The notes beneath the pieces are model-generated. The model was not told the DNA's origin and made no database searches. It saw only the letters and a list, made by a program, of their open reading frames with translations. The position numbers and the translations under genes were made by a program. Positions 17,397-32,518 of a stretch of 37,761 bases of DNA are shown here, in pieces. Within the stretch, counting starts at the first letter, position 1. Every line of letters begins with the position of its first letter. The stretch spans positions 1 through 37,761 of the IMG/VR virus record IMGVR_UViG_3300032087_004172; one strand, written 5' to 3'. The stretch comes from a virus.

Positions 17397-17870
17397 ATGA
17401 GTAAAAAATACATTAGTACAAAAACATATAGACAAATTGCACCTTGTGCATACCGCCAATGGCGAGCAGATAGTCATTGTAATCTAGTACATGGCTATGC
17501 ATTTTCTTTTCATTTTGAATTTGAAACAGATGATCTAGATGCTCGTAATTGGGTTGTGGATTTTGGCGGTTTACGACCGCTAAAAGATAAACTTGAAGAC
17601 TGGTTTGATCACACACTGCTAGTTGCAGAGGATGATCCGCAACGTGAACATCTACTTAAACTAGGTGAACTTGGCCTTGCAAAGATTACAGAAGTTGAAA
17701 AAACCGGGTGTGAAGGTATTGCTGATTTCTTGTATGAATACATCAACACTATATTCTTACCAAGTTGGGAACCCGGAGAACGTGTTTGGTGTTCTAAAGT
17801 AGAAGTTCGCGAAACAGATGCTAACATGAGTATGCGTGTTGGTCATAGAGAAGACAACGAGTTTGACTAA
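17397..17870 (+). CDS. QueD/PTPS-like 6-carboxytetrahydropterin synthase homologue
   Basis: The 157-residue protein belongs to the 6-pyruvoyl-tetrahydropterin synthase/QueD family, whose QueD members make 6-carboxy-tetrahydropterin for 7-deazaguanine (queuosine or modified DNA bases). Residues that look conserved are Cys28 and His32 in SHCNLVHGY, Asp71-His72 in WFDHTLL, and Glu139 in VEVRETDAN. Two positions that are normally zinc-binding His appear as Tyr: Tyr19 (CAYRQW, usually CAH) and Tyr34 (HGY, usually HGH; HGY also occurs in some family members). Zinc binding and activity are therefore uncertain. No queC, queE or folE was seen in the window, so it must use host partners or genes elsewhere. 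It is followed after 10 nt by the next gene with a GGAGA site. Confidence 0.78.
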   Translation: MSKKYISTKTYRQIAPCAYRQWRADSHCNLVHGYAFSFHFEFETDDLDARNWVVDFGGLRPLKDKLEDWFDHTLLVAEDDPQREHLLKLGELGLAKITEVEKTGCEGIADFLYEYINTIFLPSWEPGERVWCSKVEVRETDANMSMRVGHREDNEFD

Positions 17871-22848: not shown

Positions 22849-23400
22849 ATGCGAGGACATCTTGAAGTATTTGTAGGGCCAATGTATGCAGGGAAAACCA
22901 GTAAGCTACTTCAGCGTGTTCTTTGGCTTAATCATCAGCACAAAAAAGTCCTTGTAGTCAAACCTAGCAAGGACAATAGATATAGCGAAGACAAGATTGT
23001 AACTCACAACCAATTAAGTTACCCTTGTATTAGTGTAAAAACACTTCAAGATGTAAATGAAAACTATAATATCCAACCTTATAATTTTAACACTGTTTGT
23101 TTAGATGAAATTCAATTTATGGATAACGATCTAATGTACGAAAATGTAGAACAGTGGTTAGCAAATGGTGTTAATGTTATTGGAGCTGGCTTAGACCAAG
23201 ACAGTAGAGGGGTGCCTTTTGAAAGTGCATGCACACTTATGGGTCTAGCTGATACTGTAGAAAAAATTACAGCGGTTTGCACAACTTGTGGTAAGCCTGC
23301 TACTAAAACATATCGACTCGAAGCATCTGGAGATCGTGTACAGGTAGGTAGTATGGGCATGTATGAACCACGATGCGTAGAACACTGGGAACCTAAGTAG
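22849..23400 (+). CDS. tdk: thymidine kinase (class II)
   Basis: The 183-residue protein is a type II thymidine kinase, which phosphorylates thymidine to dTMP with ATP. Walker A is GPMYAGKTSK (10-19), Walker B DEIQF (86-90), the glycine/lasso region follows at GAGLDQDSRGVPF (112-124), and the zinc site is Cys144, Cys147, Cys176 and His179 (CTTCGKPA, RCVEH). Length and motif order are standard for bacterial and T4 Tdk. AGGA precedes the ATG. With ThyX (27594) it gives two routes to dTMP. The stop overlaps the GTG start of tctA by one base. Confidence 0.93.
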   Translation: MRGHLEVFVGPMYAGKTSKLLQRVLWLNHQHKKVLVVKPSKDNRYSEDKIVTHNQLSYPCISVKTLQDVNENYNIQPYNFNTVCLDEIQFMDNDLMYENVEQWLANGVNVIGAGLDQDSRGVPFESACTLMGLADTVEKITAVCTTCGKPATKTYRLEASGDRVQVGSMGMYEPRCVEHWEPK

Positions 23401-24839
23401 TGATAGAACAATTTGCAGTATTAGCAGCAGGTACATTGTATGGTTTAATTATTGGTATTATTCCCAGCGCTGGCGCCACTACAGGACTAATTGCACTTTT
23501 CTCAGTTATAGGATATTTTTCTGGTGATCCTTACCTAGGTGTTATTTTTTGTATGGCTGTTGTAGCTGCATCTACTACAGGTGATACTTTTGCCGGCGTG
23601 CTGTTAGGAATTCCAGGCGCAAATTCTGCTGCTGCTACAATGATAGACGGACATCCGCTTGCACTGCAAGGCAAAGCAACTTATGCAATTACAGCAGCAG
23701 TGACAACAAGTACAGTAAACGGAGTGCTATGGGGACTTTTAACCTTTGCTTTGTTACCTTTTTATACAAAATTAATGTTGATATTTGGTATACCTGAATT
23801 ATGGGCGTTTACCATGCTTGCTTTAGCGTGTGTTGGTTTTATTTCTAGCAAGTGGTGGTTGCGTAGTTTAATTGCTATTGCTATAGGTATAGCACTTGGA
23901 TATATTGGAACTGACCCTGGCACAAACGCTGATAGATGGACATTTGGTTGGCAATATTTGGGCGATGGATTACAGTTGATGCCTGTAGTTGCAGGATTAT
24001 TCGCATTTCCAGAAATGATCAAAGGGTTACGTCAAGGAACCTCTATTGCAAAAATAAGTACAGATCAAACTGCTCAAACTTTTGATGGCATAAAAGCTGT
24101 ATGGCAAAATAAATGGGATGCACTAAGAGGTGGATTTATAGGTGCATTTATTGGCTTACTTCCGGGCTTAGGCGGAAGTATTAGTGATTGGATTTCTTAT
24201 GGATCAACTGTCGCAGCAAATCCTAAAGAAAAATTTGGTAATGGAAATATCAAAGGTGTCATAGGCCCTGAAGGATCTAACAACGCACAAAAAGCTACAA
24301 GTATGATTCCAACAGTGCTATTTGGAATTCCAGGAGCGAGTTTTGCTGCTGTAATAATTGCGTTGTTTATGTATTTAGATTTTGAATTAGGCACACCTGA
24401 CCTAGCATATGATACACAATTTTTTAACAGCTTAACCTTCGGCTTTTTAGGGGCCACTGTACTGGTTGGAATTTTCTGCTTAGTGTTTACAAAATATATT
24501 GCCTTGATTACAAAAGTGCCGTATAAGTTTTACTTTCCTATTCTAGTTGTTTTTATTATTTGGGCATGTGTTCAATACACAGGTGGTTGGGAAGACTATG
24601 CAGTACTTGCAGGCTGCACTGCACTTGGATTGCTTGCAAAAAGATTTAAGTTTTCAAGACCTGCAATGTTAATGGGTTTTATTCTAGCAGATAGAATAGA
24701 AGCACTTACTTTGCAAATGATCACATTATATAACTTTGACAAATTAATAGATAGACCTATTTTCTTAGGACTTGTTTCTCTTATTATAATAGTCCTAGTA
24801 TGGGGTGTGTTACGTAGGCAAAAGTTGGAATATGCATAA
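23400..24839 (+). CDS. tctA: TctA-type tripartite tricarboxylate transporter permease
   Basis: The 479-residue, strongly hydrophobic protein (roughly 10-12 membrane segments) matches TctA, the large permease of tripartite tricarboxylate transporters that import citrate, dicarboxylates and other organic acids, driven by an ion gradient. Both halves of the inverted repeat are visible: first IIGIIPSAGATTGLI then GVLLGIPGANSAAATMIDGH (about 69-88) and PLALQGKA; second IGLLPGLGGSISDW (about 252-265) and TVLFGIPGASFAAV. Length is close to normal (about 500) and no frame damage is seen, so it may be functional. The start is GTG overlapping the tdk stop. A TctC-type binding protein is encoded at 25633, but no TctB (small four-TM subunit) is recognisable. 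Confidence 0.92.
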   Translation: MIEQFAVLAAGTLYGLIIGIIPSAGATTGLIALFSVIGYFSGDPYLGVIFCMAVVAASTTGDTFAGVLLGIPGANSAAATMIDGHPLALQGKATYAITAAVTTSTVNGVLWGLLTFALLPFYTKLMLIFGIPELWAFTMLALACVGFISSKWWLRSLIAIAIGIALGYIGTDPGTNADRWTFGWQYLGDGLQLMPVVAGLFAFPEMIKGLRQGTSIAKISTDQTAQTFDGIKAVWQNKWDALRGGFIGAFIGLLPGLGGSISDWISYGSTVAANPKEKFGNGNIKGVIGPEGSNNAQKATSMIPTVLFGIPGASFAAVIIALFMYLDFELGTPDLAYDTQFFNSLTFGFLGATVLVGIFCLVFTKYIALITKVPYKFYFPILVVFIIWACVQYTGGWEDYAVLAGCTALGLLAKRFKFSRPAMLMGFILADRIEALTLQMITLYNFDKLIDRPIFLGLVSLIIIVLVWGVLRRQKLEYA

Positions 24840-25632: not shown

Positions 25633-26682
25633 ATGTTAAAAAAACTACTAATATCAGCAACACTTTTGGTAGGTGTTGCAACGTCTGCTATGGCAGATTA
25701 TACTATGATTGTACCGCAGAAACCAGGCGGCGGCACTAGCGTATGGGCCGAAATCGTAGCCGGAGAGCTGGAACCGTTTTTGGGCGAAAACATTCGCATC
25801 AAACACATTCCAGGTGCAAGAGACATTCCAGGCTTTAATGAATGGCATAATGAAATGCGTGATAACGATAAAATTATTATGGTATCTCACGGCGGTAACG
25901 GCGTGTCATTCCTACAAGAGAATGTAGACTACAATTATGGAGAATATGAATCCATCGGTCTAATGAATCTAAATATCATTGCAGGTAAAATTAAGGGTGC
26001 TGATATGGATAATCCATCATTTGCAGCCGGATCTGGACAAACTCCAGAAGCTTTTGCAATGACTTTACTTATTTGTGGTCCTGATAAGACTATAGATGAA
26101 TATGTATCTTGTTTTAAAGATCATGTTACATGGGTACCAGGCATGTCTGGTAGTGAACGTAGGCTAGCATTTAAACGTGGAGAGCTAACAGGCACTAGAG
26201 AAAATCCTGCTGCTTACAAAAAACACGTTGAAGGTAATTCAGATGCAGAAGTATGGTTTCATCACGGAATTCTAGATGCTGCAACAGGTACACATTCTGA
26301 TGATCCTAACTATCCAGGTTACCAGCTTGAAATCCTTTTTGAAGAACGTTGGGGCGTAGAACCTAGCGGAGACATGTACAATGCGTATAAACTAGTAAAG
26401 TCTTTTAGAGATGGTTTACAAAAAGCACTTTGGGTAAATGCTGGTAATCCTAATGCAGAAACTTTGCAAAATGCTCTTACAGCAATGGCAAATGATTCAG
26501 CAGCTACAGAAGTAATTCGCAAAAAAGTTGGTGATTACGAGTGGCTTATAGGTGCAGCAGGTAATGCACAACGTGATACTTTAATGACGTTTATTACCGA
26601 AGATGCCCTTCGAGATCTTGTGCAGTTTAACACAGAAGCACTGGGCTTGAAGTCAATTTACAAGGAAGACTTAGTAAACTAA
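25633..26682 (+). CDS. tctC: TctC/Bug-type periplasmic solute-binding protein
   Basis: The 349-residue protein has a Sec signal peptide (MLKKLLISATLLVGVATSAMA, 21 residues, before DYTMIV). Next come the hallmarks of the TctC/Bug family: a first strand MIVPQKPGGGTSVWAEIVAG (about 25-44), where the Gly-rich turn binds the ligand carboxylate, then RIKHIPGARD. The remaining length is near the family's roughly 320. The protein would bind an organic acid in the periplasm and deliver it to TctA. An AAGGAG ribosome site with ideal spacing implies strong expression. It shares an apparent operon with tctA and the oxygenase. The following nucleosidase overlaps its stop. Confidence 0.8.
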   Translation: MLKKLLISATLLVGVATSAMADYTMIVPQKPGGGTSVWAEIVAGELEPFLGENIRIKHIPGARDIPGFNEWHNEMRDNDKIIMVSHGGNGVSFLQENVDYNYGEYESIGLMNLNIIAGKIKGADMDNPSFAAGSGQTPEAFAMTLLICGPDKTIDEYVSCFKDHVTWVPGMSGSERRLAFKRGELTGTRENPAAYKKHVEGNSDAEVWFHHGILDAATGTHSDDPNYPGYQLEILFEERWGVEPSGDMYNAYKLVKSFRDGLQKALWVNAGNPNAETLQNALTAMANDSAATEVIRKKVGDYEWLIGAAGNAQRDTLMTFITEDALRDLVQFNTEALGLKSIYKEDLVN

Positions 26683-27263
26683 TGAAATATAGAATTCTAT
26701 TAGTTGCACTAGAGGCTGAGTTACCTTACAAACGTGCTCCAAGAAACTGTAAAGTATTTTACACAGGAGTAGGTAAGGTAAACGCTGCATTTGTAGCAAC
26801 TCAGGCAATAGCGGAAGCCCATTCATTGGGCTTCCATCCTGAAGTTTATAACTATGGGACTGTCGGCTCATGCAACAGCAACTTACAGGGTTTGCATCGT
26901 ATAACAAAATTTGTGCAGCGTGATATGAATGCAGAGCCGCAGGCGCCACGGGGAGTTACTCCGTTTGAAGCAGGTTTGCCTTATTTAGATTTTTCGTTTG
27001 ATATGTCTCCAAGCTTAGTATTAGGAACGGGGGACCAATTTGTACACGAGCTCGAACCATGGCTTGTTCTTAATGATATTGACATAGTAGACATGGAAGC
27101 ATATGCTATTGCGGCTGTTTGTAAAAAAATGAATGTGAACCTTACGTGTTATAAGTATGTTACTGATTATGTCGGAACACCGCATCAAGCCGACGTTTGG
27201 CAAGAACGTGTAGCAGACGGTGTTGATGAATTTTTGAGAGTGATGAATGACGTACATAGTTAA
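26682..27263 (+). CDS. MTA/SAH nucleosidase-like phosphorylase family protein
   Basis: The 193-residue protein is a PNP/UDP-phosphorylase superfamily member of the nucleosidase type. Visible features are Glu11 in [18 protein letters not shown] (26-36), NYGTVGS (57-63), [20 protein letters not shown] (136-146; Glu binds the ribose) and KYVTDYVG (158-165; catalytic Asp about 162). Family enzymes cleave 5'-methylthioadenosine, S-adenosylhomocysteine or other nucleosides. At 193 residues it is shorter than MTAN (about 230), so a variant substrate is likely. It overlaps the tctC stop and the fdxA start (17 nt). A strong 9-bp hairpin sits within the coding region at 26813-26835. Confidence 0.75.
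26813..26835 (+). repeat. 9-bp perfect inverted repeat (hairpin) inside coding region
   Basis: GGAAGCCCA and TGGGCTTCC are perfect complements separated by the 5-nt loop TTCAT. It is GC-rich compared with the surrounding sequence, so the RNA stem should be stable. No T-run follows, so it is not a classical terminator. Confidence 0.75.
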
Positions 27264-27588
27264 TGATAGTTGTATAAACTGTAAGCATATGGACTGTGTA
27301 GAAGTATGCCCTGTTGACTGTTTTTACGAAGGTGAAAACATGCTGGTAATACATCCTGACGAATGTATTGATTGCGGAGTATGCGAACCAGAATGCCCTG
27401 CAGATGCAATCCTACCTGAAGAAGCAGACGGTGCTCGAGAATGGATTGAATTTAATAAAAAATGGAGCGAATTATGGCCAAATATTACTGTAATGCGCAA
27501 AGACGACGTGCCAACAGATGCAAAAGAATGGCACGGAATAAAAGATAAAATAAAATATTTTTCAGAACAACCAGGAAAAGGTGATTAA
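27247..27588 (+). CDS. fdxA: 7Fe ferredoxin, FdxA type
   Basis: The 113-residue protein is the bacterial 7Fe (3Fe-4S plus 4Fe-4S) ferredoxin. Cysteines occur at 9, 12, 17, 21, 25, 40, 43, 46 and 50, the same spacing as Azotobacter FdI (8, 11, 16, 20, 24, 39, 42, 45, 49). By analogy Cys9/17/50 bind the 3Fe-4S cluster and Cys21/40/43/46 the 4Fe-4S cluster. Motifs are [20 protein letters not shown] and [12 protein letters not shown]. The C-terminal tail (WPNITV, DAKEWHG) is also FdxA-like. It carries low-potential electrons for unidentified acceptors. It starts 17 nt before the nucleosidase stop, so the two are translationally coupled. Confidence 0.92.
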
Positions 27589-30506: not shown

Positions 30507-30995
30507 ATGTTTAGAGCACAATTGATTGCTATTATAGTAATCGCTCTAATACCCGTAGGAATCGGTGCATATTGGTACGTAAGTGGTTTACAAAGAGCTT
30601 TAGAAGTATCTCGAGCAAACGAAGCAAAACTACAAGCTGCTGTGGCAACAAACGAAGAAGCTATAAGAGTATTAAAACGAGATTTTCAACTAGCTTCTCA
30701 AGAATTACAAAAAGTAAATGATGAATTTGCAGCTATACGCAGACAAAACGAAAATCTTATTGGTAAATTAGAGAAACACGATTTAGGTTTGCTTGGCGAA
30801 GCAAAGCCGGTGTTAGTAGAAAGAATTATTAATAGAGCTACTGAAAAAGCAAATAGATGTATTGAGATATTAAGCGGTGCAGAATTAACAGAAAAAGAAC
30901 TTAACGCTGCAAGTGGAAATTCTTTTAACAGTGAGTGTCCTTGGTTATGGCAACCGCCAGTAGTTGAAGAAGAAGGTGAAGCAGATGAAAATTAA
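30507..30995 (+). CDS. Rz-like inner-membrane spanin (i-spanin)
   Basis: The 162-residue protein has an N-terminal membrane anchor (about residues 5-25: QLIAIIVIALIPVGIGAYWY) followed by a long coiled coil (about 30-85: LEVSRANEAKLQAAV, IRVLKRDFQLASQELQKV). It ends in a Cys-containing periplasmic domain and an acidic tail. This is the layout of Rz/i-spanins, which with an outer-membrane lipoprotein fuse the two membranes at the end of lysis. The next gene is a lipoprotein whose start lies inside this gene's 3' end, the classic Rz/Rz1 overlap. The residues are not similar enough to name an exact family, so architecture and context carry the call. Confidence 0.7.
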   Translation: MFRAQLIAIIVIALIPVGIGAYWYVSGLQRALEVSRANEAKLQAAVATNEEAIRVLKRDFQLASQELQKVNDEFAAIRRQNENLIGKLEKHDLGLLGEAKPVLVERIINRATEKANRCIEILSGAELTEKELNAASGNSFNSECPWLWQPPVVEEEGEADEN

Positions 30996-31356
30996 AGTTA
31001 TTTTAAGCTCAATTCTTCTACTTGCACTTACATCCTGTGGAGCTATTCCTAATGTGACGCCTATTGAAGTAACAAGTGCGCCTACTGAAAGATTAAAACT
31101 TACTCTTCCTGATATAGATGCAGTTACCCAGAAAGAAGTTTCTTGGGTTTTAATTACAGAAGAAAACTATGAAGAAGTTTTTGCAGAATTAAAAGAAACA
31201 GGTGAGCCAGTTGTATTTTTTGCTCTTACTGATACAGGATATGCAAACATATCTATCAACTATCAAAATGCAAGACAAATTATACAGCAACAGCAAGCCA
31301 TTATAGCAGCATATGAAAACTATTATGTTAATGTAGACACTGCAGAAGTTAAATAA
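30985..31356 (+). CDS. Rz1-like outer-membrane lipoprotein (o-spanin)
   Basis: From ATG 30985 the 123-residue protein has a signal peptide, MKIKVILSSILLLALTS, and a lipobox LTSC with the lipid-bearing Cys at 18. The mature protein begins CGAIPNVTPIEVTSAPTE, and a C-terminal helix through ARQIIQQQQAIIAAYENYY could pair with the i-spanin coiled coil. It overlaps the i-spanin gene by 11 nt. A longer in-frame start at 30964 would spoil the signal peptide, so I reject it. Mature length (106) is longer than lambda Rz1 (40) but within the spread of o-spanins. Role: outer-membrane partner in final lysis. Alternative: another small lipoprotein. Confidence 0.72.
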   Translation: MKIKVILSSILLLALTSCGAIPNVTPIEVTSAPTERLKLTLPDIDAVTQKEVSWVLITEENYEEVFAELKETGEPVVFFALTDTGYANISINYQNARQIIQQQQAIIAAYENYYVNVDTAEVK

Positions 31357-31385
31357 ACTAGTACCTATTACTTTGGGAGGGCAAT

Positions 31386-31727
31386 ATGGGCAAAAAATTA
31401 GAATCAAATTCTATCTACAATCAATTTGATGTAGATGGAGACGGGGTAGTTACAGACGAAGAAATGCGTCAAGCAGAACGTATGATACAAATAGAAAACG
31501 ACGATAAAAAACAAGATGCACAGCGCAATATGGCATGGTTTGCATTAGGCGGTATGTTGCTTTATCCTTTTTCTATCATTGCTACAAGTGCGTTTGGATT
31601 TGAAACTGCCGGTCAGTTACTAAAAGACATTGCACCTACTTACTTTGTGTCTGTTGCAGCTATTGTAGCTGCATTCTATGCAAAAGAAGGTGTAGAAAAC
31701 TTCGGCAAGAAGAAAGACGCTGAATAA
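31386..31727 (+). CDS. EF-hand, two-TM holin-like protein
   Basis: The 113-residue protein carries a perfect EF-hand calcium loop near the N-terminus: [12 protein letters not shown] (residues 15-26), with Asp at loop positions 1, 3 and 5 and Glu at 12. A charged helix follows, then two membrane segments (about 49-72, [20 protein letters not shown]; about 85-100, [15 protein letters not shown]), and a basic C-terminus. GGGAGGG at 31375-31381 gives a strong ribosome site. Size, two TMs and position next to the spanin pair make a holin likely (inference). The N-terminus with the EF-hand is probably cytosolic given the basic C-terminus and even TM count. No endolysin is recognised in the window. 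Confidence 0.65.
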
Positions 31728-31735
31728 GTATATGC

Positions 31736-32518
31736 ATGGACTACTATGCTACACTCGGAGTGTCAAACACTGCTTCTCAGGATGATATCAAGACTGCATT
31801 TAAAAAACTTGCTCTTGAACATCATCCTGATCGGGGCGGCGATGAAAAAAAGTTTGCACAAATTAGTGAAGCATACGATACATTAAAAGATGTTGCAAAA
31901 CGCAAAGAGTATGACGATCCAAAAGTTTTTAGTTATAACTCTAAAACAGATTTTGATTCCTGGCTTAACAAAGAGTTTTATTACAGGACAGGCAGACGTA
32001 ATCAAAATATTAAAATAACGTATACAATATCTTTTGCTGAGCAATTTACTGGTAAGCATACTGACCTAAGCTATCAATTACCCAGTGGAAAAACAAAAAC
32101 AGTGTCTATCAAAATTCCAAAAGGAATCGCACAAGGACAGAACTTGACTTTTTCAAATTTAGGTGATGATTCAAATCCTTATGTTGAATCGGGCGCACTT
32201 ATACTGTCCATAAAAGTAAAAAGTACACCAAATTGGAAGCGTGAAGGTAATGATGTACGTACATCAATTAAAGTAAATGTACTAGACCTTATATTAGGTA
32301 CAAAAGTTTCTTTATCAACTCCAATTGGCAAAGAATTTGTATTAAATATTAAACCCGGCACTAAACCAAATACAGTGCTAAGTATACCCGAGTATGGCAT
32401 TCCGCATCTAAGCACAGGCATTTGCGGAAATGTTTTAGTAAAAATCGAAGGCGAAGTTCCATTAATTACAGAGGATTCTATAATTGATAAATTAAAGCAA
32501 ATACGTGATTCAATGTAG
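31736..32518 (+). CDS. DnaJ-family co-chaperone, CbpA-like (type II)
   Basis: The 260-residue protein has an N-terminal J domain ([16 protein letters not shown], with HPD at 30-32 in HHPDRGG) and a C-terminal substrate-binding domain ([56 protein letters not shown]). The zinc finger and Gly/Phe stretch of classical DnaJ are absent, so it resembles CbpA/type II proteins, slightly short (CbpA about 306). It would stimulate host DnaK, here likely for virion-protein folding. I take ATG 31736, which starts MDYYATLG; an ATG at 31732 is out of frame. It lies 8 nt after the holin-like gene. Confidence 0.9.

Follow-up and report, generated by a model that had tools for sequence, protein, structure and literature searches.

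How holins time host lysis has long been in question, and no second messenger is, to our knowledge, established as binding a holin directly. A small gene on a 37.8-kb virus contig, which carries T4-like genes as read from its open reading frames (IMG/VR record IMGVR_UViG_3300032087_004172; "the window" denotes the whole stretch analysed, positions 1 to 37,761), raises the question of whether calcium could act in this way. The encoded protein, hereafter the EF protein, combines a canonical EF-hand loop with two predicted transmembrane (TM) segments. Judged from its sequence and that of its relatives, the protein most probably acts as a holin, alone or as half of a holin pair, and would carry a Ca2+ switch on its cytoplasmic side. 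With its almost invariant predicted calcium loop and its frequent place in the lysis module, this phage membrane family makes the question of holin timing directly testable with a 110-residue protein.

The Gene and Its Neighbours in the Window

The gene comprises 113 codons, with an ATG start at 31386 and a stop codon at 31725-31727 (Table 1). Its coordinates, loop pattern and predicted helices agree with the initial annotation, which had described an open reading frame with a canonical 12-residue EF-hand ahead of two membrane segments and an adjoining spanin pair; the latter is confirmed by the matches of the two upstream genes to phrog_739 and phrog_812, the lipobox of the second, and the 11-nt overlap between them, together the features expected of a spanin pair. 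No endolysin gene was found in the window with the families tried; phage lysozyme (PF00959) and GH19, considered as the missing endolysin, gave no convincing match either in the window or in L013, one of its nearest long relatives.

Table 1. Features of the EF-hand locus and adjoining genes (window coordinates)
Feature	Position	Strand	Basis
EF-hand two-TM membrane protein gene, 113 aa; likely holin or holin partner	31386-31727	+	ORF, predicted structure, family, 62-locus conservation
Shine-Dalgarno-like GGGAGGG, 4 nt 5' of the ATG	31375-31381	+	Sequence
EF-hand Ca2+-binding loop (predicted), residues 15-26	31428-31463	+	Pattern match; D15, G20, E26 unchanged across 45 diverse members
One predicted helix (residues 24-69) comprising the exiting helix, the charged linker and TM1	31455-31592	+	AlphaFold model, conservation
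TM2, about residues 83-99, with invariant Y86 and A96, then Lys-rich C-terminus	31632-31682	+	AlphaFold model, conservation
i-spanin-like protein, N-terminal TM and coiled coil	30507-30995	+	phrog_739 Rz-like spanin, E=3.3e-9; synteny
o-spanin-like lipoprotein, lipobox ..LTSC	30985-31356	+	phrog_812 Rz-like spanin, E=3.3e-5; synteny
DnaJ-like protein, conserved downstream neighbour, itself no lysis gene	31736-32518	+	Pfam DnaJ and DnaJ_C; synteny

Elsewhere, the window encodes a full-length TctA-type tripartite tricarboxylate transporter membrane subunit (23400-24839; PF01970, E=2e-92), an unusual auxiliary metabolic gene on a T4-like contig, and near it a secreted protein similar to the binding subunit TctC but with no Pfam match (25633-26682). 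Other genes encode (i) a UvdE-type UV endonuclease (72-1097), (ii) a 6-pyruvoyl tetrahydropterin synthase-like protein (17397-17870), (iii) a phosphorylase-superfamily nucleosidase (26682-27263), and (iv) a ferredoxin (27247-27588).

The EF-Hand Loop and Its Conservation

Residues 15-26 satisfy both PROSITE PS00018 and a stricter canonical 12-residue pattern, D-x-[DN]-x-[DN]-G-x-[ILV]-x-x-x-E. Among 200,000 random shuffles of the protein's residues, 118 yield PS00018 and 8 the stricter pattern; together with the conservation among loci located by the membrane half, this rules out an EF-hand arisen by chance. The Pfam EF-hand models match the protein only below their cut-offs (EF-hand_1, 19.9 bits vs 25.4, E=5e-4; EF-hand_5, 19.5 bits vs 25.9), and comparison of the family profile with the PDB retrieves calmodulin-type chains at E values of about 1e-5 to 1e-4, mostly over one hand and the linker helix. 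Calmodulin-type EF-hands share with this family the canonical loop and a long exiting helix, whereas in this family the loop is single and unpaired and sits on a membrane protein. Since the entering helix is very short in many relatives, the conserved unit is the loop with its exiting helix, not the full helix-loop-helix.

To lessen circularity, the membrane half alone served as query in addition to the whole protein; every relative was then placed anew with membrane-half queries and its reading frame extended, giving 263 loci. The loop is present in 254 of these; the nine loci without a match comprise (i) five cut by the contig end, (ii) one with an unknown residue, (iii) two with near-canonical loops (DLNGNNKIDPEE and DVNGDNKVDDQE), and (iv) one true loss. 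The one true loss, L154:84-380, is the only intact homologue without it (MTEDNKDTLDSLALEERRRAM...) and provides a natural test of the need for the loop.

In a non-redundant set of 62 members (<80% identity), 57 match the strict pattern. D occupies loop position 1 in 60/61, G position 6 in 59/62, and E, the Ca2+-type residue, position 12 in 61/62. All but one sequence have D or N at position 3, and all but one at position 5; I, L or V stands at position 8 with a single exception, whereas the non-ligand positions, 2, 4, 7, 10, and 11 among them, vary. The only invariant columns in an alignment of 45 sequences are D15, G20, and E26, corresponding to loop positions 1, 6, and 12, and G56, P61, Y86, and A96 in the membrane region. 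Synonymous codon differences at the fixed loop positions point to purifying selection, and the pattern as a whole indicates selection for metal binding.

Membrane Anatomy and Topology

The structure of the protein was predicted with AlphaFold2 and the family alignment, at moderate confidence (pLDDT 75.5, pTM 0.44). The model displays a short entering helix (residues 10-14) and, beyond the loop, helices at residues 24-69, 73-81 (short), and 83-112. The first of these runs from the loop through the charged linker, whose length differs by 2 or 7 residues between members, into TM1 (about residues 49-69, with the invariant G56 and P61). Across the family, Lys and Arg residues number on average about 4 in the 15 residues that precede TM1, 0.55 in the stretch joining the TM segments, and 2.4 beyond TM2, a distribution that, by the positive-inside rule, predicts an N-in/C-in topology with the EF-hand on the cytoplasmic N-terminus. 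The hydropathy of the homologues supports two TM segments, with TM2 below the threshold in Roseobacter phage CRP-810. Model helices, charge bias, and hydropathy are all consistent with the anatomy of a class II holin, small and with two TM segments, N-in/C-in. A fold search of the PDB with the model gave no match, and that of a viral library a single one, an unnamed 84-aa viral protein, presumably a relative.

A Viral Family Without Annotation

Searches with tblastn identified relatives in eight kinds of isolate phage, comprising Roseobacter phages CRP-1, CRP-9, CRP-207, CRP-345, and CRP-810, Limnohabitans phage DC31, Methylophilales phage Melnitz, and Pelagibacter phage HTVC008M; every one of them carries the annotation hypothetical protein, and one match extends over the start of the adjoining spanin gene as well. 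Three overlapping scans of IMG/VR confirmed 383, at least 585, and 227 candidates, that is, hundreds of loci. The phages that carry the family are linked to SAR11, OM43, roseobacter, and freshwater hosts or habitats, and the members are mostly 98-118 aa long. A cellular origin was considered and rejected, the 14 matches in the genome collection lying in metagenome-type bins, probably on phage contigs; the family appears to be viral. PHROGs and NCBIfam hold no informative family for the EF protein, and no precedent for an EF-hand holin was found in the open literature searched. Holin-like lysis proteins are already known; one with an EF-hand would be new, in what appears to be a large phage family without annotation.

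Gene Neighbourhoods in the Relatives

The 62 non-redundant loci were labelled by homology to seeds, a lysis label denoting lysis genes within 2.5 kb. Lysis genes (endolysin, spanin or three-TM holin-like) flank 28/62 loci, a T4-like tail-hub neighbourhood surrounds 13/62, and the remaining 21/62 are uninformative; by an estimate from genome sizes, perhaps 5-10% of random genes would be expected to lie near lysis genes. On the family tree, which is poorly resolved and built on few columns, the lysis label changes nine times, well supported branches requiring at least four of the changes. Most lysis loci belong to one of three groups, and complete cassettes are found in CRP-1, CRP-9, CRP-345, and the loci L043 and L162.

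In group (i), 18/62 loci, the EF gene is followed directly by a gene for a three-TM holin-like protein (PF11351, phrog_2524 or phrog_6637), overlapping it by 4 bases in 13 of the 18, and in all but one an M15, GH19 or GH108 endolysin gene comes next; in L155, a phrog_1544 gene lies upstream of the EF gene instead. The partner in CRP-810 is a true PF11351 GTA_holin_3TM (E=2.5e-20). With a separate holin-like gene alongside, the EF protein might act as an antiholin or second component, the three-TM neighbour making the hole and being held or released according to Ca2+. We regard this reading as possible rather than probable: in its favour, several partner families share the position, but the cassettes of CRP-1, CRP-9, CRP-345, and L043 have no such partner, and PF11351 itself occurs in just 2 of the 24 records searched, one of them above the cut-off.

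In the lysis region of Roseobacter phages CRP-902 and CRP-13, phrog_2524 is immediately preceded by a gene for a small two-TM protein that lacks an EF-hand, as if the EF protein and this protein replaced one another; in HMO-2011 a homologue of the small protein lies downstream of phrog_2524, so the slot is not fixed. Proteins of phrog_32327 with a C-terminal TM (L273:2067-2534, L003:3517-3999, L009:3251-3712) turn up repeatedly as the upstream neighbour of the EF gene or the small two-TM gene, and the one in CRP-902 is annotated as "peptidase". The protein gp73 of CRP-207 (L002:3292-3873) is annotated as "putative lysozyme", yet comprises an N-terminal TM and a coiled coil and has no lysozyme match; its look-alikes adjoin the EF gene in L020, L031, L150, L258, and L260 and could be i-spanin-like.

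Group (ii) comprises CRP-1, CRP-9, and CRP-345, in which the EF gene is accompanied by an M15 endolysin gene and a u-spanin gene (lipobox and C-terminal TM), in the order EF, endolysin, u-spanin in CRP-9 and CRP-1, and EF, u-spanin, endolysin in CRP-345. The three endolysins are signal-less and without TM, and the EF protein is the only holin-like two-TM protein in the cassettes; CRP-1 also encodes, two genes upstream, a 153-aa protein with one C-terminal TM.

Group (iii) comprises T4-like contigs, with the order i-spanin, o-spanin, EF, DnaJ, Clp in the window and in L010-L016; in L011, the o-spanin and EF genes are separated by two small ORFs, one of 54 aa and a nuclease-like one of 156 aa. 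Two further T4-like loci complete the cassette with an endolysin, L043 (GH19 endolysin, phrog_181 E=2e-77, then i-spanin, o-spanin, EF, DnaJ) and L162 (GH19-like endolysin, spanins, EF, DnaJ). A cytoplasmic endolysin needs a holin, and the cassettes of group (ii) and L043 offer no other holin-like candidate; by elimination, these loci are the strongest evidence that the EF protein may itself be the holin. Taking anatomy and neighbourhoods together, our confidence is evenly balanced that the EF protein is a lysis-module inner-membrane protein of the holin type, with two TM segments, N-in/C-in, and a cytoplasmic Ca2+-binding EF-hand rigidly joined to TM1.

Comparison with Known Holins

No holin family model scored above its cut-off in members of the family scanned singly; Phage_holin_3_6 (PF07332) matches 18/45 members at E up to 0.1 (best 2e-5), the singly scanned members all below cut-off. 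A T4-type holin elsewhere in the EF-carrying records was considered and rejected, the T4 holin T model (PF11031) matching none of 13 T4-like or large records, HTVC008M and Melnitz included. Homology to the neighbouring three-TM families was likewise rejected: GTA_holin_3TM, phrog_2524, phrog_6637, and phrog_1544 share with the EF family a place in the lysis module and a C-terminal TM pair, and the TM2 endings look alike, but these families have no EF-hand and the profile-profile comparison is not significant (hhalign probabilities 1-21%); for PF11351 the probability is 0.7%, and no PF11351 match was found in the EF proteins.

Class II holins, such as the S protein of lambdoid phage 21, comprise two TM segments in an N-in/C-in arrangement. 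The EF family resembles them in size, in the two TM helices, in the N-in/C-in charge pattern, and in its place beside endolysin and spanins, but shows no detected sequence relation and carries in addition a predicted cytoplasmic N-terminus of about 48 residues bearing the EF-hand. The T4 holin T differs, with one TM segment, a periplasmic domain, and no EF-hand. Its cytoplasmic N-terminal helix beside the TM is essential for pore formation, and the cytoplasmic antiholin RIII is thought to act at this helix (PMC12162936), which makes a switch at the same place in the EF protein mechanistically reasonable.

A Possible Calcium Mechanism

The EF proteins may, tentatively, form a widespread class of Ca2+-gated holins, in which Ca2+ influx through the first lesions would load and pair the EF-hands, trigger the holes, and so set the timing of lysis. 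Cytoplasmic Ca2+ is sub-micromolar in bacteria, against about 10 mM in seawater, and a lone EF-hand typically binds weakly and pairs with another, position 8 of the loop, hydrophobic in nearly all members, being the residue of the pairing strand. Beyond the conserved canonical loop, we infer the following steps: (i) the EF protein would accumulate in the inner membrane with its loop unoccupied at the very low Ca2+ of the cytoplasm; (ii) first small lesions or depolarisation of the membrane would admit Ca2+ from the periplasm; (iii) since a single hand is weak alone, Ca2+ would pair the hands of neighbouring subunits and stiffen the exiting helix and TM1; (iv) oligomerisation into holes would become all-or-none and cooperative; and (v) the signal-less endolysin would then escape, the spanins completing lysis. 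Calcium may in this manner help control the timing of host lysis.

An EF-hand that permanently holds Ca2+ (or Mg2+) and merely folds or pairs the N-terminus of a holin-like protein, with no sensing, seems unlikely: a near-invariant loop would be expected of a structural site too, and in the periplasm the site would always be full at seawater Ca2+, but the charges place the loop in the cytoplasm, where a single hand would be mostly empty.

Tail-Hub Loci

In the 13 tail-hub loci, HTVC008M and Melnitz among them, the gene order is gp26, gp51, EF, gp29-like, and no lysis genes were found in the flanks. T4-like pelagi- and methylophages (L004 and L007) thereby place a membrane protein gene between gp51 and the gp29-like gene. 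This order would fit a membrane factor for virion assembly, e.g., a baseplate-hub anchor, with proximity to lysis genes secondary, but we consider that role very improbable, given that the lysis context recurs on the tree and that the family occurs beside endolysin and u-spanin in the roughly 55-kb genomes of CRP-1, CRP-9, and CRP-345, with no hub genes in the stretch read.

The holin reading of the initial annotation is upheld in part. The EF gene takes the holin position in cassettes of unrelated phage types and its loop is almost never lost, whereas the three-TM neighbour of group (i) and the tail-hub loci qualify it; homologues without the loop, which had been named as counter-evidence, are essentially not found. 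The T4 lysis genes are dispersed in the T4 genome, and by analogy it is plausible that the tail-hub EF gene is a scattered lysis gene in T4-like phages. No holin is named in the description of Melnitz, where a curli pore is put forward in its stead (PMC9004378); the EF protein is a holin candidate for such phages.
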